A stretch of 25,571 nt of DNA, taken from positions 1-25,571 of the IMG/VR virus record IMGVR_UViG_3300017752_004844; one strand, given 5' to 3'. How positions within the stretch are numbered: position 1 is the first letter of the stretch; every line of letters begins with the position of its first letter. The translations under genes and the position numbers were made by a program. Shown one piece after another: positions 3,317-17,464 of the stretch. This DNA is from a virus. Under the pieces are notes generated by a model. That model made no database searches, was not told the origin of the DNA, and saw nothing but the letters and a program-made list of their open reading frames with translations.

Positions 3317-3599
3317 TTTTCTTTTTGCTTTCTAACTTTTGTATCCGTGTCTCCAAATCATCAATCTTTTTGGTGACTTTTGGATATCGTTTACGCCATG
3401 CCTCTGGATCATCCTGAAGCCATTCCCATCCAAAGCGGTCCACCAGGTGGTCCAATAGACCATCAAATTTGCTCATCAAATATAGAGCAGCCTTTGTATT
3501 ACGGAACCATGCCAGAAATGCGGCACCTACAATAGATCCACCAATAGCAGTATAGATCCACAGTGTATCTCCAAACATCCTTGTGAGCATTTCCATCAT
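3306..3599 (-). CDS. Membrane-anchored coiled-coil protein, 97 aa
   Basis: The start is set at ATG 3599, which overlaps the lipase TGA (ATGA); upstream alternatives lie inside the lipase gene. A membrane segment spans roughly residues 14-34 ('IYTAIGGSIVGAAFLAWF'). It is followed by a Trp-rich amphipathic stretch ('RFGWEWLQDDPEAWRKRYP') and a C-terminal coiled coil ('KKIDDLETRIQKLESKKK'). Its topology of one TM plus a cytoplasmic or periplasmic coiled coil is seen in holin-like and spanin-like proteins, but no signature settles this. It is coupled to the lipase upstream. Confidence 0.7.
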   Translation of the reverse strand: MMEMLTRMFGDTLWIYTAIGGSIVGAAFLAWFRNTKAALYLMSKFDGLLDHLVDRFGWEWLQDDPEAWRKRYPKVTKKIDDLETRIQKLESKKKNVK

Positions 3600-4306
3600 T
3601 TTACATCCTTCGTACACTTGGTATAGTTATTCATTCCGTGATCGGCTGCACCATCCAAGAAACCGGATCTCCAACCTCTCCATCTATCCTTAAGTAATTG
3701 CCAACCAGTCATTTTACGAACGTTTCCATAAAAGTTAATGTACTGTAATGCGCCGTGATGCTTGTAGCCCATAATGAACAATGGCACCTTGGTGACAATA
3801 TCATTATTATTAACATACCTAAGGTGAGTCGTAGAAATATTTTTTACAAATTTACGAGTACCAACTCTTGGTGAGCCGAAGGTGGTTAATTGTTCTACCT
3901 TACGTTCCTCTTCAAAGCGAGATGTAGCAATAGTAGCCATCGCAGCACCTAATGAGTGCCCAGTGATGTACATTCTCTTTGTTTTGTGATTATTATGGTG
4001 TTTTACTATATCAGCCCAGAGTTTATCACATTCATTTCTGAAACCTGAATGTACCAAACCGTGAGTCATAGCACCTCGTGGAATAGCATTTAAATCTGCT
4101 AATACATCACTTAGTTCTGAAGGTTCTGTACCTCGGAATGCAAGGACATATTCCTCTTTGTTCCATACAGCATGGCATTGAGCACCATCATTTTCAAAGA
4201 ATTTATGACCCGTGTAACCCAAGGCCTTCATTTTTGGTTTTGCCTTTGCACTATCCAAATATGCAAGTTCAGCTAATTGTGCCATTTTATGACAAACGTT
4301 TGACAT
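3596..4306 (-). CDS. Class 3 lipase (alpha/beta hydrolase)
   Basis: This 236-residue protein has the lipase class 3 hallmarks: 'YVLAFRGTE' (oxyanion strand, residues 53-61), the nucleophile elbow 'ITGHSLGAAMA' with Ser118, 'TTFGSPRVGTRKF', the catalytic Asp169 in 'NNNDIVTKVP', and a candidate catalytic His183/184 in 'YKHHG'. Class 3 lipases hydrolyse acylglycerols or phospholipids. No signal peptide is seen, so the enzyme would start in the cytoplasm. The start ATG has a strong AGGAGG seven bases upstream. It lies in the late minus operon next to small membrane proteins, so a role in membrane breakdown at lysis or in lipid use is a reasonable inference. Confidence 0.9.
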   Translation of the reverse strand: MSNVCHKMAQLAELAYLDSAKAKPKMKALGYTGHKFFENDGAQCHAVWNKEEYVLAFRGTEPSELSDVLADLNAIPRGAMTHGLVHSGFRNECDKLWADIVKHHNNHKTKRMYITGHSLGAAMATIATSRFEEERKVEQLTTFGSPRVGTRKFVKNISTTHLRYVNNNDIVTKVPLFIMGYKHHGALQYINFYGNVRKMTGWQLLKDRWRGWRSGFLDGAADHGMNNYTKCTKDVK

Positions 4307-5983: not shown

Positions 5984-6370
5984 TCACTTTACTTTAGAAC
6001 ATATTTTTGAGGAGACAACGGTAGGCCCTCCCCCCTTTAGTAATTTAGATCTTGTACAAACATACCCAACCATATTAACATCTCGATCTCTAATGAATAC
6101 TGTAAATGATTTTCTAGCTAAATAATTTACTTTAAAGATTCGTTCAGTTGAAGCAAAAGGAATTTGCTTCCAGTCTTTGTCAAATACTGATATTTCATAA
6201 TAGAGTACATCTGCTCTTCTATTAAATAGTTTAAGATTAAGTTGTTTAACCTCCGGCATATATGAATTTCTAAGTTCAGGATACGCCGGAGTCATTTCAT
6301 GTGACATTGCCTTGTTAGCTAGAAAAAGCATTATAAGACAAATCAGCACCGATAAAATCAAATATCTCAT
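5984..6370 (-). CDS. Exported Ig-fold, periplasmic-chaperone-like protein, 128 aa
   Basis: An N-terminal hydrophobic signal (residues 1-23, ending 'NKAMSHEM') is followed by a beta-rich domain. 'LKLFNRRADVLYYEISVFDKDWKQI' and 'ERIFKVNYLARKSFTVFIRD' recall the first strands of PapD-type pilus chaperones, which cap secreted subunits by strand donation. Two late Cys ('GYVCTRSK', 'SKICSK') could pair. It lies directly downstream of a possible secreted subunit gene (6386-6904). The fold suggestion is by pattern only, and the protein is shorter than classical two-domain PapD (about 220 residues). Confidence 0.6.
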   Translation of the reverse strand: MRYLILSVLICLIMLFLANKAMSHEMTPAYPELRNSYMPEVKQLNLKLFNRRADVLYYEISVFDKDWKQIPFASTERIFKVNYLARKSFTVFIRDRDVNMVGYVCTRSKLLKGGGPTVVSSKICSKVK

Positions 6371-6385
6371 AATAAAAGCCTATTT

Positions 6386-6904
6386 TTAGTTAGCGATGCA
6401 TTCTGCTTCAACGATAGAGGTATATGTACCTGCAGGAAATGCAGTATTAAACCCATACGTAGCTGCCGAGGTTACTGAAAACCAGGTAGTTCCTGCCACA
6501 GATAAATCATATTCTGTTGCGTTATCAAATTCTACCTTTGCCGCTTCATACCCAGCCATATTAACATCTGATGTATTAGAAACAGTTGTGGATCCAGTCC
6601 AAGTAACTGTATCAGTTAGGCTCGGCGATGTCGAGAAGGACAATGGGTGTCTAATCCTTGCCGTATAGAAATCTGCCTGAGCAACATCAAATCGAATGAC
6701 GGGGTTGACACCACCATCAGCACTCTCGGTGCTCAACTCGTTGGGGGTAGGGTTACCATACACTCCTGAGGTGTCGGTAAAGATTGAACACTTAGCCTGT
6801 ACGTTCCCTACAATAGGTACGTCTTCTGCCGCTGCCACCGAAACATAACCAATTGCAGAAGCTAGGCTTATTCCTAATCCTGTAATTATTGGTTTGATAT
6901 TCAT
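6386..6904 (-). CDS. Exported pilin/fimbrial-subunit-like beta protein, 172 aa
   Basis: A signal peptide (MNIKPIITGLGISLASAIGYVSVAAAED) is followed by a Thr/Ser/Gly-rich beta protein. Cys near the start of the mature chain ('VQAKCSIFTD') and near the end ('SIVEAECIAN') could be joined. The ending 'FPAGTYTSIVEAECIAN' is like the last strand of fimbrial or spore-coat-U type subunits ('P-x-G-x-Y-x-x-x-V-x-x-x-C'). The ribosome-binding site is CGGAG. Its neighbour is the chaperone-like 5984-6370 gene. Function is inferred only as a secreted structural subunit. Confidence 0.6.
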   Translation of the reverse strand: MNIKPIITGLGISLASAIGYVSVAAAEDVPIVGNVQAKCSIFTDTSGVYGNPTPNELSTESADGGVNPVIRFDVAQADFYTARIRHPLSFSTSPSLTDTVTWTGSTTVSNTSDVNMAGYEAAKVEFDNATEYDLSVAGTTWFSVTSAATYGFNTAFPAGTYTSIVEAECIAN

Positions 6905-6925
6905 AAATTTACTCCGTTTATAGTT

Positions 6926-7852
6926 TTAGTTTTTGTATTGCGATCTGACCATATCACTATGGACCTGATCTGAAGCCAAATTACGGAGAGCTCTTCTATT
7001 GTCGGGAATATCCGAGTCTGGTAATTTAACTGTTTCTGGATAGGCACCTCCAGGAATCTGTGCCTGATAATAAGTATTAAACTGCGGTACCGCTGATAAT
7101 CGTAACATTCTTTCCTGTTCTTTTGCAGTAGTAACAAAGCCTTCTATATCCATACCAGCATTTAGTTCCCTGATAGGATCTTCTGCACTTGCATCTTCCT
7201 CACGTTCTTCTCTTTGTTCTCTGTCACTCAAGTCTTCCTCTTCATCATCCATCTGATCCCTATTTACCACCAATTGAACGTATTCATCATAGTAAGGGTC
7301 ACCTGGTTGTGGAGGAGCTTCAAAGAGTCCTTGGTCCTGCATCCACGTAAATAAAGCATCCTCGTAGCCAGGACATTCTGGATTTGAAATCACCACATAA
7401 CATTCATCATATTTATAGCTGTATATGACAGTAGGATCACTAATAGTACCTGCACCTTCCGTTTCAATGGATCCGGTACCAAAAGCCGTTGCTGGTGTAT
7501 TTTCAATCGAAATGAGCCTACTAATTGTGTTGCCAGGTAAACCAGACCAATCGTCGGTACTTCTGAAAACATAGCCTGGCCCTTGCGCATTTTCATTCTG
7601 CACGTGAACTAATAAATTATCGGCTGCCTCTTTGTCTACTGTATAACGATAAAAAACATTACCGATGGTCAAGCCGGTCTGTGCTGGTAGTATGTTAGCC
7701 ATTACCCAGCTAAGTCCATTTGCGGCCGCATTGTTTGTGGTACTGTAGACCTCAGTTCCCGTCCCTGTTACTGCTGATTCCTCAGAGTAACAAAAGGAGG
7801 AGGAGAGTGCCCAAAATACCACCGCCGATAAGAGTGCTCTTTGTCTCTTCAT
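6926..7852 (-). CDS. Large exported protein, 308 aa
   Basis: A signal peptide (MKRQRALLSAVVFWALSSSFCYS) is followed by a domain rich in Thr/Asn/Gly (residues about 25-150). A segment with paired Cys ('YDECYVVISNPECPGYEDALF') and a very acidic Glu/Asp/Arg stretch (about residues 195-225) come next, then a polar C-terminal part. No family is recognised. Its start overlaps the end of the upstream gene by 71 bases in another frame, so the signal peptide is encoded antiphase to the hydrophobic tail of 7782-8351. Such tight overlap supports co-expression. It is the largest secreted product of the cluster. Confidence 0.7.
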   Translation of the reverse strand: MKRQRALLSAVVFWALSSSFCYSEESAVTGTGTEVYSTTNNAAANGLSWVMANILPAQTGLTIGNVFYRYTVDKEAADNLLVHVQNENAQGPGYVFRSTDDWSGLPGNTISRLISIENTPATAFGTGSIETEGAGTISDPTVIYSYKYDECYVVISNPECPGYEDALFTWMQDQGLFEAPPQPGDPYYDEYVQLVVNRDQMDDEEEDLSDREQREEREEDASAEDPIRELNAGMDIEGFVTTAKEQERMLRLSAVPQFNTYYQAQIPGGAYPETVKLPDSDIPDNRRALRNLASDQVHSDMVRSQYKN

Positions 7853-8351
7853 TTACTACCTTATTTTTGTTTCCAGGCATTTTATCCTGGTTTTCTTCCC
7901 AAGCAGCTTTAGCGTCTACACCAATTTTCCCATCAAAGGGACATGGTGTGCCGGCATTCATCATTGCATCAAAAACACGTTCGTCCTGACACATTACAGA
8001 AACAGCTGCCACCTTCATACCCATATCATATAGAGTCTTAGCATTTTTTAACTTTTCGCAATTCATATCACGAACAGTTTTACCTGCTGAGATACCCAAT
8101 ATCTGAGTCTGCACTGCCCCGGCAATACCTACAGTACACAGATCAGAGTTCGCCGTATTGATCTGTGGAGATATAGCTGAGGGAGGAGCAGTTTTTACTG
8201 TTGTGGTGGAATCACTTGTTGAGTTAATTGTACTCTGTGTTGTAGATTCCGTTTTAATAACATCACTTGCTGTGCTGTCTGCTTCCTGCCCGAATGCAAG
8301 ACTAGGCAGACATAACACCATTAACAATAACATTAATTTAGATTTAATCAT
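7782..8351 (-). CDS. Exported protein with C-terminal membrane anchor, 189 aa
   Basis: A signal peptide (MIKSKLMLLLMVLCLPSLAFG, cleavage near FGQ) is followed by a Ser/Thr-rich linker (residues about 25-65). A helical domain with four Cys ('SDLCTVGIAGAV', 'VRDMNCEKLK', 'VMCQDERVF', 'TPCPFDG') comes next, and a C-terminal hydrophobic tail ends in seven leucines after 'IGGGILGT'. The mature protein would be periplasmic and tail-anchored. It is the first gene of the minus operon, 39 bases downstream of a TATAAATA late-promoter motif. No family is recognised with certainty. Confidence 0.75.
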   Translation of the reverse strand: MIKSKLMLLLMVLCLPSLAFGQEADSTASDVIKTESTTQSTINSTSDSTTTVKTAPPSAISPQINTANSDLCTVGIAGAVQTQILGISAGKTVRDMNCEKLKNAKTLYDMGMKVAAVSVMCQDERVFDAMMNAGTPCPFDGKIGVDAKAAWEENQDKMPGNKNKVVNEETKSTLIGGGILGTLLLLLLL

Positions 8352-8389
8352 AGTATCAATCCTGTGTATTCATTATTTTTTCACATGTT

Positions 8390-8397
8390 TATTTATA
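8390..8397 (-). promoter_or_regulatory. T4-late-type promoter motif (TATAAATA)
   Basis: Exact TATAAATA on the minus strand, 39 bases upstream of the first ATG of the thirteen-gene minus operon. T4 late promoters consist of this box, read by gp55 sigma with gp33 and the gp45 clamp. A gp33-like gene is present in this window. Confidence 0.7.
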
Positions 8398-8443
8398 TAT
8401 CTTCCCAGCCTATTTCTGCGAAAACTGACAGATAGCCTCAGAT

Positions 8444-8467
8444 CACCGTGTCACAAATGTGACGGTG
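8444..8467. promoter_or_regulatory. Imperfect dyad between divergent promoters
   Basis: CACCGTGTCACA and TGTGACGGTG form a 10-bp inverted repeat with a 2-base bulge and almost no loop. It lies between the minus late promoter (8390) and the plus early promoter (8490). No T-run follows on either side, so an operator-like dyad is as likely as a terminator. Confidence 0.4.
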
Positions 8468-8489
8468 CAATTTGGTCAAAACTTTGACA

Positions 8490-8518
8490 TTGACAAATTG
8501 ATTTTGATGTGTTAATAT
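8490..8518 (+). promoter_or_regulatory. Sigma70-type early promoter of the permease gene
   Basis: TTGACA (8490-8495), 17-bp spacer, TAATAT (8513-8518). A second TTGACA directly precedes it (8484-8489). The expected start of transcription is near 8525, at the foot of the first leader hairpin. Confidence 0.7.
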
Positions 8519-8595: not shown

Positions 8596-9561
8596 ATGGA
8601 ACTTCTAACAATGTGGTCCTTAGTGGGCTTTTTACTAGCCGCATATGCGGTTATTGCCAATGATTCAGTACAGACTCTCGGTACTTGGATGGCATCTAAC
8701 AATGAGAGATTTAACTTTAAAGTATTATGGGCCGCAGCTTCTGCGGTTTTATTGTATACACTATGGTATGGTTGGTATATGAATGGCGGTGATATATCCT
8801 ATGGCCGTTTGAATAAGATCCCATTCCAAGAAGTACAATGGTATCATGCGGCAGCACCAGCTATCCTTGTTTTACTTACACGGATGGGTGTACCAGTTTC
8901 GACATCATTTTTGGTGCTATCGGTATTTGCTTCAACCTTTGTGTTGGAAAAGATGCTTATGAAATCAATTATGGGTTATGGTGTGGCAGCAACATTTGCT
9001 TATGCTGTATGGTTTGCCATTCACAAATACTTTGGTAAATGGTACGATGAAACACAACCAGTATCTGAAGGCAATAAAAAGTTTTGGAGAGTAGCCCAAT
9101 GGGTTGCCACCGGCGGTTTATGGTTTACTTGGTTGTCGCATGACATTGCTAACATTGCAGTATTCTTGCCACGAGCAATTCCTGTAGATCTAATGGTGTT
9201 TATCAGTCTTGTGTTTGTCACTGGCCTGTTCTTTATGTTTAGAGAAAAGGGTGGTAGGATCCAAAAGATTGTTTTGGAAAAACATAATACCCGATATGTA
9301 CGATCAGCAACATTAATTGACTTATTCTATTGGTTATGTCTGTACTTTTTCAAAGAACTGAATGATATTCCTATGAGTACCACGTGGGTATTTGTTGGGC
9401 TACTTGCAGGGCGTGAATTGGCTATGGCTACATACTTTGGTAAAAAGAAAACAAAATCAGTATTTCCATTGGTCGCTAAAGACTTTGGTAAAATGATGGT
9501 TGGTCTTGGTGCCTCGGTTGCGTTAGTATTACTGATTCATTATGTTATAAATCCGTCATAA
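8596..9561 (+). CDS. Pit-like (PHO4 superfamily) phosphate permease
   Basis: This 321-residue protein has about nine hydrophobic segments. It has two inverted copies of the Pit signature: 'VIANDSVQTLGTW' (residues 19-31) and 'LSHDIANIAVFLP' (180-192). 'GVPVSTSFLVLS' (98-109) and 'MSTTWVFVGLLAGRE' sit at the places of the PVSTTH motifs. Pit transporters move inorganic phosphate with protons or sodium across the inner membrane. The protein is shorter than bacterial PitA (about 500) and lacks the large central loop. The canonical G-A-N-D is I-A-N-D here. It has its own promoter and a structured leader. Raising phosphate supply during infection is the obvious inferred role; another anion is possible. 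Confidence 0.75.
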   Translation: MELLTMWSLVGFLLAAYAVIANDSVQTLGTWMASNNERFNFKVLWAAASAVLLYTLWYGWYMNGGDISYGRLNKIPFQEVQWYHAAAPAILVLLTRMGVPVSTSFLVLSVFASTFVLEKMLMKSIMGYGVAATFAYAVWFAIHKYFGKWYDETQPVSEGNKKFWRVAQWVATGGLWFTWLSHDIANIAVFLPRAIPVDLMVFISLVFVTGLFFMFREKGGRIQKIVLEKHNTRYVRSATLIDLFYWLCLYFFKELNDIPMSTTWVFVGLLAGRELAMATYFGKKKTKSVFPLVAKDFGKMMVGLGASVALVLLIHYVINPS

Positions 9562-11421: not shown

Positions 11422-11661
11422 ATGACACCTTGGATTCAATCAACCCGCAATGGCTTTGAAATGGCTGAAGAAGAAATGAATCGCCTTGATGCTCAAACTG
11501 CTCAAGGTGAGCAATCAGTAATGGTTCAACGTGACATGAAAGCATGGGCTTTGGATAAAGGTCTGTGGCCAAATGAGCCATATAAAGATATTGTTGTTCT
11601 TCATGCCATTGACCGTGGCTGGTTACAAGCAAACTTTACTGGGCTAGAGGTCTGCGAATAG
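11422..11661 (+). CDS. Hypothetical protein, 79 aa
   Basis: The start is set at ATG 11422, one base after the previous stop, because GGAGG lies nine bases upstream; a longer frame from 11401 overlaps the neighbour and lacks a site. The product begins MTPWIQSTRNGFEMAEEEMNRLD and is helical with Trp residues in the second half ('KAWALDKGLWPNEPYKDIVVLHAIDRGW'). The last 26 bases overlap the end of the convergent lipoprotein gene. No family is recognised. Confidence 0.75.
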   Translation: MTPWIQSTRNGFEMAEEEMNRLDAQTAQGEQSVMVQRDMKAWALDKGLWPNEPYKDIVVLHAIDRGWLQANFTGLEVCE

Positions 11662-13667: not shown

Positions 13668-14000
13668 TTACTTTTTGGCAGAATATGCATTCGCACCAAA
13701 GAATACTGATACCAAGGCAGAAATAGCAACAAAGTATGTTGGTGCAATATCACCTACAATACCTGCTGCACCGTCCAAGCCTAGATAAGCAGTGAACATA
13801 ATAGTAGCTGGATAGAGCAACATGCCAAACAATGCGAACCATGTCATTTTACGCATGGCATCCCGTTGGGCATCTTGATCTTCTAGTTCTCTACGTTTAA
13901 ATTCTAGGTGCATGTTCATTTCTTCTGTTGAAATGTGTCCGTCACCGTTTGCGTCAACGCCTTCTACTGCATCCGCATCAATCGTTTTCTTTGCAGCCAT
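13668..14000 (-). CDS. EF-hand, two-TM membrane protein, 110 aa
   Basis: Residues 16-27 'DANGDGHISTEE' form a canonical EF-hand calcium loop (D16, N18, D20, G21, I23, S24, E27), followed by a charged helix ('MHLEFKRRELEDQDAQRDAMRK'). Two membrane segments follow: 'WFALFGMLLYPATIMFTAYLGL' and 'YFVAISALVSVFFGANAY'. Only one EF-hand is present, whereas they usually pair, so dimerisation is possible. The start ATG has AGGAGGTTG upstream. A TATAAATA box at 14050-14057 (minus) suggests late expression. The role is unknown; a calcium-sensing holin-like regulator is only a guess. Confidence 0.75.
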   Translation of the reverse strand: MAAKKTIDADAVEGVDANGDGHISTEEMNMHLEFKRRELEDQDAQRDAMRKMTWFALFGMLLYPATIMFTAYLGLDGAAGIVGDIAPTYFVAISALVSVFFGANAYSAKK

Positions 14001-14049
14001 TGTGCAACCTCCTTTTTATTATGATTATTATATGCACTTGCACAAATTT

Positions 14050-14057
14050 TATTTATA
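14050..14057 (-). promoter_or_regulatory. T4-late-type promoter motif (TATAAATA)
   Basis: Exact TATAAATA on the minus strand, 50 bases upstream of the EF-hand gene's ATG. Confidence 0.6.
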
Positions 14058-14075
14058 AAAAAATTAAAATAATGG

Positions 14076-14103
14076 TTGACATTTGCTCAAGATGGTATAT
14101 ATT
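14076..14103 (+). promoter_or_regulatory. Sigma70-type early promoter
   Basis: TTGACA (14076-14081), 16-bp spacer, TATATT (14098-14103), then AGTACTATAA. The 42 bases from ATGGTTGACA to ACTATAA match the promoter at 14333-14360 with three differences, so one is a copy of the other. Confidence 0.8.
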
Positions 14104-14129
14104 AGTACTATAAACAGAAAGGATACACA

Positions 14130-14303
14130 ATGGAAATGTTTAAAAGATTCTATGAGATCACAATCACATCTCCTGACGGAACACTTTTGGATACAAGAGA
14201 GGAATACTCTGGTTATGCTACATCAGAAGAAATCATGTATCTGAAAAGAGAATATCCTGGATGTACAGTTGAGGCTGAATTCAAAGAACTTAAGGTCTCA
14301 TAG
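14130..14303 (+). CDS. Hypothetical small protein, 57 aa
   Basis: The ATG at 14130 has AAAGGATA upstream and a dedicated promoter. The product begins MEMFKRFYEITITSPDGTLLDTREEY and ends 'EAEFKELKVS'. It looks like a beta-hairpin ('FYEITITSPDGTLLDTRE'), a helix ('TSEEIMYLKREYPG') and a last strand ('CTVEAEFKEL'), a compact fold of the kind common among early phage proteins. No family is recognised. Confidence 0.75.
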   Translation: MEMFKRFYEITITSPDGTLLDTREEYSGYATSEEIMYLKREYPGCTVEAEFKELKVS

Positions 14304-14332
14304 AAAAAATGAAAATAAATGCAAATAAATGG

Positions 14333-14360
14333 TTGACATTTGCTCTAGATGGTGTATATT
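14333..14360 (+). promoter_or_regulatory. Sigma70-type promoter of the structured RNA/tRNA-Pro unit
   Basis: TTGACA (14333-14338), 16-bp spacer, TATATT (14355-14360), followed by AATACTATAAGG. The expected start of transcription falls at or just before the left foot of the long terminal stem at 14371. Confidence 0.8.
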
Positions 14361-14370
14361 AATACTATAA

Positions 14371-14564
14371 GGACTATTTTTCTCATACGTCCGTGCGGAG
14401 GGAAGGCCACCTGAAAACACAATCTCGCGAGAATAATTCGCCTGTGAAATATCAGTGTCGTGAAAACGTGGAGATGTTAGTTTCAATCAAACTAGAGCGG
14501 CAATGTCAATAAGGCCGTGCGGAGAGATTGGAGATACTAGCTGGGCGTATGAGGAAAATAGTCC
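14371..14564 (+). ncRNA. Unassigned structured RNA, about 194 nt, closed by a 19-bp terminal stem
   Basis: Bases 14371-14389 pair with 14546-14564 in a 19-bp stem with one G-U. Inside, CAATCTC (14420-14426) pairs with GAGATTG (14524-14530). Local hairpins include GCGA/TCGC (14427-14441), CGT-GAAA-ACG with a GNRA tetraloop (14459-14468) and TAGTTT/AAACTA (14478-14494). The 10-base sequence CCGTGCGGAG occurs twice (14391-14400, 14515-14524). No ORF with a ribosome-binding site is seen. It starts at a good promoter and ends five bases before tRNA-Pro, so it is likely cut from a common precursor. It lacks RNase P, 6S and group I intron signatures that I know. Confidence 0.7.
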
Positions 14565-14569
14565 TACTA

Positions 14570-14646
14570 CTCGGTGTAGCTTAGTCTGGTAAAGCGCCTG
14601 GTTTGGGACCAGGAGACCGTAGGTTCAAATCCTACTACCGAGACCA
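14570..14646 (+). tRNA. tRNA-Pro (anticodon UGG)
   Basis: The acceptor CTCGGTG (14570-14576) pairs with TACCGAG (14636-14642) with one G-U. The anticodon stem CCTGG/CCAGG encloses TTTGGGA with anticodon TGG. The T-arm has GTAGGTTCAAATCCTAC, and CCA is encoded at 14644-14646. It reads CCA and other Pro codons by wobble. Confidence 0.97.
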
Positions 14647-14671
14647 ACATAACTCTTTTGGAGACTTTATT

Positions 14672-14836
14672 ATGACTGAACTTATGACTGATATTGGTGT
14701 TATTGAATCTGCATTAATCGCCTTTAACGAAGGTGCCACCGATGAGAAATATGCGGCACTTTACTCTTTGGAAAAACTTCTGTTGGAAAAGAAGGACATG
14801 GTTGCAAAATTTGAAGCAACCGCATGTGACCTATAA
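14672..14836 (+). CDS. Hypothetical small helical protein, 54 aa
   Basis: The start ATG 14672 has GGAG eight bases upstream; the longer frame to the left runs through tRNA-Pro and is not credible. The product begins MTELMTDIGVIESALIAFNEG and is nearly all helical, ending 'EKKDMVAKFEATACDL'. It is transcribed from the same unit as the structured RNA and tRNA-Pro and lies just before the tmRNA. No family is recognised. Confidence 0.7.
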   Translation: MTELMTDIGVIESALIAFNEGATDEKYAALYSLEKLLLEKKDMVAKFEATACDL

Positions 14837-14899
14837 GTCACATAACAATGTTATATGTTGGCTTTTGATATATAACATAATAAATACTATGTAATCGTT

Positions 14900-15190
14900 G
14901 ATACAATTCAACATGCATGCTGGACTCGGGGGCAGTACCCGACAGCTCCACCATAAAGATACTAGTGTCCAGTTAAGTTTGGAACGCATCTGATAAAGCG
15001 GCTAGTATCTTTATGATGGGGCTGAACTAGGATCGACAGGTGTATAGAGATGAGAGTAGATTACCGTGGTGGCTTACGACATTCGGCCAAACAAACTAAA
15101 CGCAAACGATAATGTTGCACCTTCAGGTTATGCACTAGCGGCATAAGTTGACGGGCTGGTCACTTGCCTCGGAACAGAAAAGTGACACTT
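14900..15190 (+). ncRNA. ssrA: Circularly permuted (two-piece) tmRNA, ssrA
   Basis: The acceptor piece comes first: T-stem TCGGG/CCCGA followed by CAGCTCCACCA ending at 14953. The coding piece begins GGGGCTGAAC at 15018, and GGGGCTG pairs with CAGCTCC as in all tmRNAs; 'GGATCGACAGG' is the D-domain signature. The intervening segment (14954-15017) is bounded by a 14-bp perfect inverted repeat (14952-14965/15002-15015) that would present both mature ends for processing. The tag frame 15102-15146 reads GCA AAC GAT AAT ... GCG GCA TAA = ANDNVAPSGYALAA. A 7-bp hairpin (15159-15165/15180-15186) ends the coding piece. The 5' limit (about 14900) is uncertain. Two-piece tmRNA with an ANDN...AA tag is typical of alphaproteobacteria. 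The RNA rescues stalled ribosomes together with host SmpB. Confidence 0.92.
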
Positions 15191-15199
15191 TATTCTAAT

Positions 15200-15229
15200 G
15201 ACTCGTCAGTTTTGACGGGTCTTTATTTT
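15200..15229 (+). terminator. Intrinsic terminator of the tmRNA unit
   Basis: GACTCGTCA (15200-15208) pairs with TGACGGGTC (15213-15221), with a GTTT loop and a TTTATTTT tail (15222-15229). Confidence 0.85.
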
Positions 15230-15259
15230 GCTTTAATACACACAAGGAGATTTTCAAGG

Positions 15260-16045
15260 ATGAAAAATCTATTTTTAACTACCGCAGCAACGGCTTTGAT
15301 GGCCTCAACTGCTTTTGCCGCTGATGTCACTGGTGACATTAAATTGGACCTTACACAAAATGCAGATGATGATATCGTCGCCGCACAAACACTGGAATTC
15401 GGTATTGACGCTATGGCCGGGGATGCAGGTATTGGATTCGCAATGAACGGAGATACCGTAACCGTGGATTCATGGCATATGGGAGTAGCAACAGGAGATA
15501 TTGCTTTCTCATTTGGCGATCAAGGTGACTTGCTAGGTGACTTTGGTGGAATCACAGAAAATGTTGGCGGAACAACTTTGGCCAATCCATCTGATGAGGG
15601 TGAAAGCCTAATCGCAAGTGCATTTGGCGCACGCGTTATGATTGGTCTCACTGATATGACAGCTGATGTAACTGATGTAAAAAATGTACAAGGTACATAT
15701 GGCATGAATGTAGCTGGTGCTAGTGTCGGTGTAGGTTTGGACTATAATATGGATTCAGAGGAATTTGTATACATGGGCTCTGCCGGTGTAACTAGATCCA
15801 TCGTAGGTACTGAAGCTAGTGTTGGCACAACATTTACATACGGTGCCGAGACATTTGCTTATGAGACAGATGTAACCGTATTCGGTGTTACAGGTTTTGT
15901 AAACGGTGACGAAAACGACACACTGCAAAATGTAGGTGGCGGTTACTACACTAACGTACAAGGTTTGGATGTATATGCTGAAACTTCATACAACCTTGAC
16001 AGCGAAGAGTTTACTCCATCCGCAGGCGTTGCATTCTCGTTCTAA
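15260..16045 (+). CDS. Phage-encoded outer-membrane porin-like beta barrel
   Basis: The start is set at ATG 15260, preceded by AAGGAGATTTTCAAGG; the longer frame runs back through the tmRNA. A signal peptide (MKNLFLTTAATALMASTAFA) is followed by about 240 residues of alternating strands rich in Gly, Asp and Thr, with no Cys. The protein ends 'SAGVAFSF', the terminal-Phe beta-signal recognised by the BAM assembly machinery. Strand/turn repeats such as 'GLDYNMDSEEFVYMGSAGV' and 'ETSYNLDSEEFTPSAGVAF' are alike, suggesting duplicated hairpins. At 261 residues it would make a barrel smaller than classical trimeric porins. Inferred roles are nutrient uptake, superinfection exclusion or altered outer-membrane permeability. 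Confidence 0.75.
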   Translation: MKNLFLTTAATALMASTAFAADVTGDIKLDLTQNADDDIVAAQTLEFGIDAMAGDAGIGFAMNGDTVTVDSWHMGVATGDIAFSFGDQGDLLGDFGGITENVGGTTLANPSDEGESLIASAFGARVMIGLTDMTADVTDVKNVQGTYGMNVAGASVGVGLDYNMDSEEFVYMGSAGVTRSIVGTEASVGTTFTYGAETFAYETDVTVFGVTGFVNGDENDTLQNVGGGYYTNVQGLDVYAETSYNLDSEEFTPSAGVAFSF

Positions 16046-16102: not shown

Positions 16103-16165
16103 AGTTCAAAAGTTGCATGAGCGAACTTTGTAATTAACACTCACAATTTGGAGGAATTAGATTTT

Positions 16166-16783
16166 ATGGCAAACAACTTAAAGGAACTTACATGGGAACA
16201 CCACAAATCAGCAGAACGTACTGAGTTTACTCAAATTTTGTTAGGTGGTGAAATTAGCCCAGAACTTTATCACAAATATCTTTGCAGCCAATTAATTTGC
16301 TACACTGCTCTTGAAGAGGCGGTGACACTTCCTGAAGAGTATCAGTCAGTGTTTAGACAAACTGGATTAGAAGAAGATATTGCGGAATTGGAAAGCATTT
16401 ATGGTATTGAACCATGGGATGATCCTTTAACAGCAGTAGTTGAATATGTTGATCATATAGGTTATCTTGCAAAAAACAATGATAACGATGGTCTCCTGGC
16501 TCACTTATATGTTCGCCATTTTGGTGATATGAGTGGCGGCCAAATTATAAGAACCAAGGTTCCAGGTGATGGCACATTCTATGACTTTGAAGACATTGAT
16601 GCATTAAAATCTGGTATCAGAGGATTGTTACACAATGAAATGGCTGTAGAAGCTGGCATTTGTTTCCAATATGCTGAACAAATGTTTGGTGAATTGCTAG
16701 ACACAACACCATATTATTTTAATACTGAATATGCAATGTCAGAAGGTTTACCATACGAACCTGCTGATGGTGAAGAAGAATAG
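16166..16783 (+). CDS. ho1: Heme oxygenase (biliverdin-forming)
   Basis: The start is ATG 16166 because GGAGGA lies upstream at 16150-16155. The 205-residue protein has the HO fold signatures: proximal heme ligand His13 in 'LTWEHHKSAERTEF', and the distal-helix motif 'VRHFGDMSGGQII' (residues 116-128) with the Gly residues that bend over heme. The family cleaves heme to biliverdin IXalpha, iron and CO using ferredoxin electrons. The length matches phage-type HO (cyanobacterial HO1 is about 240). The next gene follows after three bases and encodes a bilin reductase, so biliverdin is passed on within one operon. Confidence 0.93.
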   Translation: MANNLKELTWEHHKSAERTEFTQILLGGEISPELYHKYLCSQLICYTALEEAVTLPEEYQSVFRQTGLEEDIAELESIYGIEPWDDPLTAVVEYVDHIGYLAKNNDNDGLLAHLYVRHFGDMSGGQIIRTKVPGDGTFYDFEDIDALKSGIRGLLHNEMAVEAGICFQYAEQMFGELLDTTPYYFNTEYAMSEGLPYEPADGEEE

Positions 16784-16786
16784 CAT

Positions 16787-17464
16787 ATGGAAATAGTAAA
16801 TAAACTAAATAAATTTACATCCGATACGAAAACTCTTTTTTCCAATAACATGGAAAGAACTATGCCTGACTATAAGGTAGAGCAATTTCCTGGATGGTCG
16901 GATCAGTTTTGGAAAAAGCCAGGACTGATTAGAAAATGTCATTTAAAAACAATAGATCTAATTGAAGAACGAAACCTTTGGCTTCTGCACATTAACATCT
17001 TTCCAGAGTTTGGGCTTGATTTGCCTATATTAGGATGTGATGTGGTTGCAGGTCCAAATAAAATTAGTGGTTCGTTCTTTGATTTCTCTCCTATTGTTAA
17101 ACAACACCATCCAATGATTAATCACTTCGCCGAACAAACTGGTGAGGTGTCTTGGAAACGGGAACGAAAATTGCCACCGTGGGCAACAAAGATCTTTTCA
17201 AATCATATGGTAGCCGCTGGTGCGGTTCGTAATGAGGAAGTGGATCAGTTCACAGAGTTGACATTTTCTCTTATGGAATATTATATGGCCCAGATGGAAA
17301 CTCTTGCCGAACAGACTATGCTGGATACAAAGGCGATCCAGAATACCTATTGCAAAAATCAGAAAAAGAATCCTAAGTTGCACAGTTCAATTGCTGCAAT
17401 GGGGATTCCAGAACATAAGAAAAATTATTACGTAGATCGAATTCTTTTTGAAGAAATTGGTTGA
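16787..17464 (+). CDS. pcyX: Ferredoxin-dependent bilin reductase, PcyA/PcyX type
   Basis: This 225-residue protein aligns by eye with PcyA. 'RKCHLKTIDLI' is followed by 'WLLHINIFPEFGLDLPILGCDVVAGPNKISGSFFDFSPI', where His68 and Asp85 match PcyA His88 and Asp105; then 'RKLPPWATKIFS' and a C-terminal 'YYVDRILFEEIG'. PcyA Glu76, needed for full reduction of the D-ring vinyl group, is Lys54 here, and the PcyA N-D-K segment reads N-P-K (195-197). Loss of Glu76 fits PcyX, the phage enzyme reported to turn biliverdin into phycoerythrobilin. The PcyX call over PcyA rests on these residues, the ho1 neighbour and the absence of cyanophage genes. The stop codon overlaps the TTGACA of the next promoter. 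Confidence 0.85.
   Translation: MEIVNKLNKFTSDTKTLFSNNMERTMPDYKVEQFPGWSDQFWKKPGLIRKCHLKTIDLIEERNLWLLHINIFPEFGLDLPILGCDVVAGPNKISGSFFDFSPIVKQHHPMINHFAEQTGEVSWKRERKLPPWATKIFSNHMVAAGAVRNEEVDQFTELTFSLMEYYMAQMETLAEQTMLDTKAIQNTYCKNQKKNPKLHSSIAAMGIPEHKKNYYVDRILFEEIG

Follow-up and report, generated by a model that had tools for sequence, protein, structure and literature searches.

The window analysed here is a complete IMG/VR record of 25,571 bases, and at 14891-15189 on its plus strand ARAGORN and two Rfam models concur in placing a permuted tmRNA of the alphaproteobacterial type. ARAGORN delimits a permuted tmRNA at 14860-15237 with the tag ANDNVAPSGYALAA, RF04321 (tmRNA_permuted) matches 14891-15146 at 121.5 bits (E 1.3e-23; gathering score 47) and RF01849 (alpha_tmRNA) matches 14844-15189 at 108.6 bits (E 4e-29; gathering score 50). 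As in both Rfam families, the acceptor piece is encoded 5' of the coding piece. A sequence-only reading of this DNA had described a two-piece permuted tmRNA of alphaproteobacterial type, to be checked with a covariance model, and a 64-base intervening segment (IVS) delimited by a perfect inverted repeat of 14 bp; the design and the type are borne out by ARAGORN and by two model scores above their gathering scores, and the IVS with its repeat was found at 14954-15017. The start it gave needs a slight correction, as the acceptor piece begins at about 14891, upstream of the claimed 14900. The features of the locus are collected in Table 1.

Table 1. Features in and around the tmRNA gene, in window coordinates.
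Feature	Position	Strand	Evidence
Sigma-70-like promoter, TTGACA-16-TATATT	14333..14360	+	11/12 consensus match; consensus match alone
tRNA-Pro(UGG), upstream of the tmRNA, same direction	14570..14646	+	ARAGORN; Rfam tRNA, 70.5 bits
Small ORF, 54 aa, between tRNA-Pro and tmRNA	14672..14836	+	Same place in relatives
tmRNA acceptor piece (P2 5' strand, T arm, acceptor-stem 3' strand, CCA)	14891..14953	+	RF04321 and RF01849 alignments; covariation
IVS, 64 nt, presumably removed in the mature RNA	14954..15017	+	RNA fold; covariation
IVS base helix	14954-14966 pairing with 15001-15013	+	RNA fold; covariation
IVS tip module, three-way junction (hairpins 14968-14983 and 14985-15000)	14967..15000	+	Covariation; covariance model R1
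UGAU leader of the coding piece	15014..15017	+	Pairs with A-C-C-A, one A.C mismatch
tmRNA coding piece, 5' end GGGGCUGA	15018..15189 (end approximate)	+	RF01849 match reaching 15189
Tag reading frame ANDNVAPSGYALAA and stop	15102..15146	+	ARAGORN; tag kept in relatives
Terminator-like hairpin, then T-rich tail	15200..15221	+	
Porin-like predicted beta-barrel protein with signal peptide	15260..16045	+	Adjoins the tmRNA in nearest relatives

The acceptor stem, GGGGCUG with CAGCUCC, pairs fully in the window and the CCA is present, a pairing which yields the alanine identity pair G3-U70. This pair (T-G) is invariant in 164 of 164 phage sequences, consistent with an alanine-type acceptor stem. The tag has 14 residues, with a resume site and a hydrophobic degron end, and is identical in the relatives L121-L124 (L numbers are our locus labels) and nearly identical in L125-L136. 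Its likeness to alphaproteobacterial tags (ANDN...LAA), from which the sequence-only reading had drawn a clue to the host, holds in general terms, given that 89% of sampled bacterial tags start with ANDN. No SmpB gene was recognised among the scanned proteins of the window. We conclude that this marine T4-like phage, a relative of Melnitz, carries a complete two-piece tmRNA of alphaproteobacterial type which is probably working; taken as a tmRNA it is one more member of an already-known kind.

The promoter-like site is the probable start of a unit comprising a non-coding RNA, tRNA-Pro, the 54-aa ORF and the tmRNA, and the stretch holding it is 98% identical in the sister phages L121, L122 and L124. 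The 54-aa ORF is without a Pfam match and is 96% identical in the L121 group and 81% in the L125 group. Between the promoter-like site and tRNA-Pro lies a strongly structured RNA (14370-14566, z -5.75, closing helix of about 20 pairs), whose slot is taken by an ORF in L121 and by a smaller hairpin in L125; relatives of this RNA were found neither by phage BLAST, nor by an exact IMG/VR pattern, nor among the fetched loci. Downstream of the tmRNA, the porin-like protein occupies the same place in L121-L136 at 52-85% identity, and AlphaFold2 models it (mean pLDDT 63.6) with about 17 strands and a helix at the N-terminus; it has no match in Pfam, PHROG, NCBIfam or 50,697 phage records. Homologues of T4-like gp33, gp59, gp32, UvsX and gp41 follow, which bears out the placement of this tmRNA in a phage, and the order tmRNA-porin-gp33-gp59-gp32 recurs in L121, L125, L129 and L136. 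As both the slot and the gene order are conserved in relatives, the tmRNA gene is a stable resident of the lineage rather than a stray host fragment. In the window itself, the porin and gp33 are separated by genes for heme oxygenase and bilin reductase; the pair (16148-17464; the reductase ferredoxin-dependent, the pair of pcyX/pcyA type) is kept in L121-L128, and such gene pairs are known in pelagiphages (PMC11480375).

The search for a host gave no exact match: a 33-base 5' pattern returned 0, and a looser pattern matched one Sphingosinicella MAG, which we do not take for a donor because its IVS is unrelated. When the tmRNA was compared by BLAST with 385 alphaproteobacterial genomes, the matches listed covered mostly the T arm and CCA, the others being short stretches of the coding piece. 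Pelagibacter was considered as host and not adopted; the G+C content of the window (38.7%) and the occurrence of its type of module in a roseophage bear on this, neither being decisive.

The sequence-only reading held a permuted phage tmRNA to be rare, which is contradicted both by published counts and by our scans: such genes are common in aquatic phages. In a survey of 18,146 genomes, Buchholz et al. (2022; PMC9004378) counted 402 phages that bear a tmRNA. The unique tmRNAs numbered 133, of which 53 are two-piece and, within these, 50 aquatic. Our IMG/VR scans, each with a fixed range of IVS length (17-47, 48-78 or 79-109), returned at least about 120 loci each. The closest described system is that of Melnitz (L138), a Methylophilales phage of the Kyanoviridae, and related pelagimyophages, which are marine and T4-like and likewise carry a permuted alphaproteobacterial-type tmRNA (PMC9004378). 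The slot is the same in Melnitz (tmRNA-gp33-gp59-gp32; its gp32 is 58% identical), except that in the window the porin, heme oxygenase and bilin reductase genes separate the tmRNA from gp33. Melnitz has a glutamine riboswitch with its tmRNA, a trait that does not define the group, whereas the window is without one (no Rfam match anywhere in it, nor at E up to 10 within 14000-15400), and the Melnitz IVS has 142 nt and a possible micro-ORF, whereas that of the window is a structured 64-nt module. Two further isolates carry unannotated sequences of this kind: DSS3P8 (L139) has a permuted tmRNA with a 106-nt IVS, and Phosso (L141) has tmRNA-like matches. Two loci hold two permuted tmRNA genes each, L118 at 8159-8493 and 9090-9481, and L176 at about 3560-3760 and at 6604-7002.

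With the alphaproteobacterial tmRNAs of RF01849 and RF04321 the window shares the order of the parts, the T arm, the acceptor stem and the type of tag, but its RF01849 score of 109 bits is well below those of bacterial chromosomal copies (143-313). The phage IVS differs as well, being longer than the bacterial one and having a covarying helix that runs through the CCA; among 28 tmRNAs from genomes drawn evenly across Alphaproteobacteria, the IVS has a median of 33 nt and a helix of at least 8 pairs in 25%.

Selection on the mature RNA was assessed in 164 different phage sequences whose identity to the window across the paired regions is 70% or more. In this set pairing in the acceptor stem is 99-100%, and the two pairs of this stem that vary covary strongly; in the T stem pairing is complete (100%) and as many as four pair types occur. 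The inner P2 pair, which joins the two pieces, varies on both sides (TA 99, AT 51, CG 10); conservation of the outer P2 pairs of the window is limited to near relatives. The pairing between the pieces that the two-piece design predicts in related phages is thereby found, and both the acceptor stem and the inner P2 show compensatory changes. Judging from these alignments, the mature tmRNA is under selection. They also bear on the idea that the phage RNA is a decoy blocking trans-translation in the host, in the manner of phage DS6A with its tagless tmRNA; the precedent is a report that a tagless phage form inhibits the endogenous tmRNA in E. coli (PMC11915505). As the resume region, the 14-residue tag, the stop, the acceptor identity pair and the helices between the pieces are all present here and conserved in relatives, we consider a decoy highly improbable.

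What may be new at this locus is the significance of the inverted repeat, which the sequence-only reading had seen and passed over. The repeat pairs CATAAAGATACTAG (14952-14965) with CTAGTATCTTTATG (15002-15015) and hence includes the CA of the CCA end. In the predicted precursor the acceptor stem extends through A73-U(-1), a C74.A(-2) mismatch, C75-G(-3) and A76-U(-4) into 13 IVS pairs, and the resulting hairpin (14943-15024) has a folding energy of -39.2 kcal/mol (z -7.6), with none of 200 shuffles folding as well. The helix is general among phages: in 223 distinct phage IVS of at least 36 nt ending in GAT, a choice that fixes the last three letters, pairing at IVS positions 2-11 is 89-100%, with as many as six pair types, versus 52-89% in shuffles, which leave the kinship among the sequences in place. 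G-U pairs are commoner in this helix than non-pairs (for example 51 T-G versus 3, and 37 G-T versus 8), an excess which points to selection on the transcribed strand. The TGAT leader is found in 234 of 284 phage IVS of at least 30 nt versus 8 of 48 bacterial IVS. In tRNA precursors RNase P works best on a leader ending in A(-2)U(-1), and pairing of the leader with RCCA kinetically hinders RNase P in some tRNAs (PMC9433436); the window likewise pairs its UGAU leader with ACCA and keeps A(-2)U(-1), but whereas the hindrance concerns some tRNAs, the leader pairing of most phage tmRNA precursors belongs to a long helix. Why a phage buries its CCA end in a helix before maturation would now become a testable question. 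Certain bacteria share the phage-like IVS helix (L165, L220-L222), and one order, represented by 10 genomes, includes members that have it, so phages did not invent it.

Above the base helix, the tip of this IVS forms a module of its own. A three-way junction was derived from 18 distinct sequences, in which 99.2% of cells are paired and 8 pairs have changed on both sides; its covariation score of 0.323 (0.175 in shuffles) was equalled by none of 500 shuffles, the loop CUGAUAAA of hairpin 14985-15000 is invariant, and RNAalifold returns the same helices minus two pairs in gapped columns. Copies in IMG/VR occupy at least 27 tmRNA IVS besides that of the window and at least 4 places that are non-tmRNA or degraded. 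The covariance model R1 finds four loci outside an intact tmRNA, none of them in its training set: L506, L507 and L512 carry the module on a long hairpin 3' of a reading frame, with no tmRNA, and L497 looks like a decayed tmRNA. R1 also recovers, again outside the training set, an unannotated stand-alone module in the isolate Roseobacter phage CRP-143 (L140, 42061-42113; 53.3 bits) and the divergent tmRNA IVS of L073 (41.6 bits). The module is without an Rfam family and is absent from 385 alphaproteobacterial genomes, in which the single match (E 0.009), inside a coding frame, was taken as chance.

A second module, consisting of two adjacent kissing hairpins, behaves in a similar way. Among the matches listed from an IMG/VR scan it occurs mostly in tmRNA IVS (30 parsed and at least 6 further by eye); the scan also placed it in the 5' leader of tRNA-Pro(UGG) in at least 11 cases, and the remaining copies are mostly stand-alone, on a different long stem. 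Examples in tRNA-Pro(UGG) leaders are L034 at 11499-11550, L196 at 8074-8127 and L210 at 6154-6207. That modules lie at several sites inside long inverted repeats (L506, L507, L512, CRP-143 and upstream of tRNA-Pro) would suit mobile DNA hairpins of the repeat type, inserting at the tmRNA hairpin and elsewhere, with the RNA structure a by-product of the palindrome. We think this improbable, as G-U pairs far exceed all non-pairs, pointing to selection on one strand as RNA, and as the complementary six-base loops of the second module covary.

The tips are exchanged between phages. Twenty-three distinct relatives, counting the window, were picked on the basis of the coding piece only; every one retains a base helix of 9-16 pairs, and yet their IVS lengths lie between 29 and 149 nt and their tips are unrelated. 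Among 22 sampled tmRNAs at least 80% identical to that of the window, its tip recurs in L034 only. Where both 300-nt flanks of two loci are at least 80% identical, the IVS differ in 159 of 311 pairs. L129 and L136 have flanks 99.3 and 99.7% identical and IVS of 29 versus 102 nt, L204 and L210 have flanks 99.3 and 99.3% identical and unrelated IVS of 74 and 73 nt, and the window differs in its IVS from L121 at flanks of 93.7 and 95.3%. Conversely, a near-identical IVS core is found in 200 pairs whose tmRNAs are less than 72% identical, and the same tips are found on tmRNAs merely about 50-70% identical. The first sample held 16 tip families of at least 3 members, and singletons make up 111 of the 142 phage IVS tip clusters sampled. 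Taken together, these comparisons of genomes show the IVS to be modular, the tip being replaced wholesale while the base helix is kept. None of 14 loci tested has an Rfam family for its tip, and no publication on IVS exchange was found in a search of largely open-access literature.

It could be argued that this is an ordinary phage tmRNA with a neutral spacer, its base helix kept as a processing aid and its tip varying and swapped by ordinary recombination in the flanks. Mature two-piece tmRNA lacks the IVS, and the flanks offer short conserved homologies at each side. Some phage IVS are nearly empty (29-39 nt), so that a cargo is not essential for the tmRNA, and bacterial IVS are variable as well: among pairs with mature RNA 90% alike, the IVS is less than 60% alike in 40% of pairs in one bacterial genus and in 50% in phages. 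Because bacterial IVS also vary fast, variability alone was not used as evidence, and we relied instead on IVS replacement in situ between flanks 99% identical, on tips shared by different backgrounds, on covariation and on copies that stand alone. A neutral spacer is at odds with the compensatory changes and the invariant loops of the tips, as it is with the persistence of the same modules in tRNA-Pro leaders and alone on other stems, for which a spacer offers no explanation, and we regard this account as unlikely.

We therefore favor, at a probability of about 0.6, a working two-piece tmRNA whose IVS is an exchange site for structured RNAs, with a small RNA released by processing. In this proposal the tmRNA would be transcribed as one precursor, in which the IVS base helix prolongs the acceptor stem through the CCA end. 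From what is known of tmRNA biology, RNase P would cut before GGGG and other nucleases would trim to the CCA, leaving two pieces that would remain paired through the acceptor stem and P2; host AlaRS would charge the RNA with alanine, host SmpB would be its partner, and stalled proteins would be tagged with ANDNVAPSGYALAA and passed to proteolysis. The IVS would serve as a site where small structured modules replace one another on a retained base helix, and the phage would express from its pre-tmRNA a small stable RNA, presumably freed by tRNA-type processing. We infer that the IVS, once excised, has or had a function as a small RNA, which the very processing that makes the tmRNA would set free. 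Stable RNAs to which no function has been assigned occur in phage tRNA clusters, for example RNA C and RNA D of T4, and by description alone these are comparable in that they too are small structured phage RNAs adjoining tRNA genes.

More tentatively, and at clearly less than even odds, aquatic phages may use the pre-tmRNA IVS as a cassette for the expression and processing of exchanged small non-coding RNAs, or in some lineages of micro-ORFs, that act in infection, for example as sRNAs or counter-defence RNAs. By itself, the tmRNA confirms that many phages of aquatic habitats carry a ribosome-rescue RNA of their own, whereas the IVS result would mark a site in the genome at which structured RNAs are rapidly exchanged amid unchanged surroundings, and reading the segment between the tmRNA pieces would offer a ready route to phage non-coding RNAs. 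In several IVS we observed micro-ORFs that follow a ribosome-binding-site-like sequence and continue into the tmRNA coding piece: those of L280, L284, L292, L323 and L333 form a family with a common protein pattern that ends in ...YICINNYS..HARL, and others lie in the IVS of L183/L215 and, as a possible case, of Melnitz.
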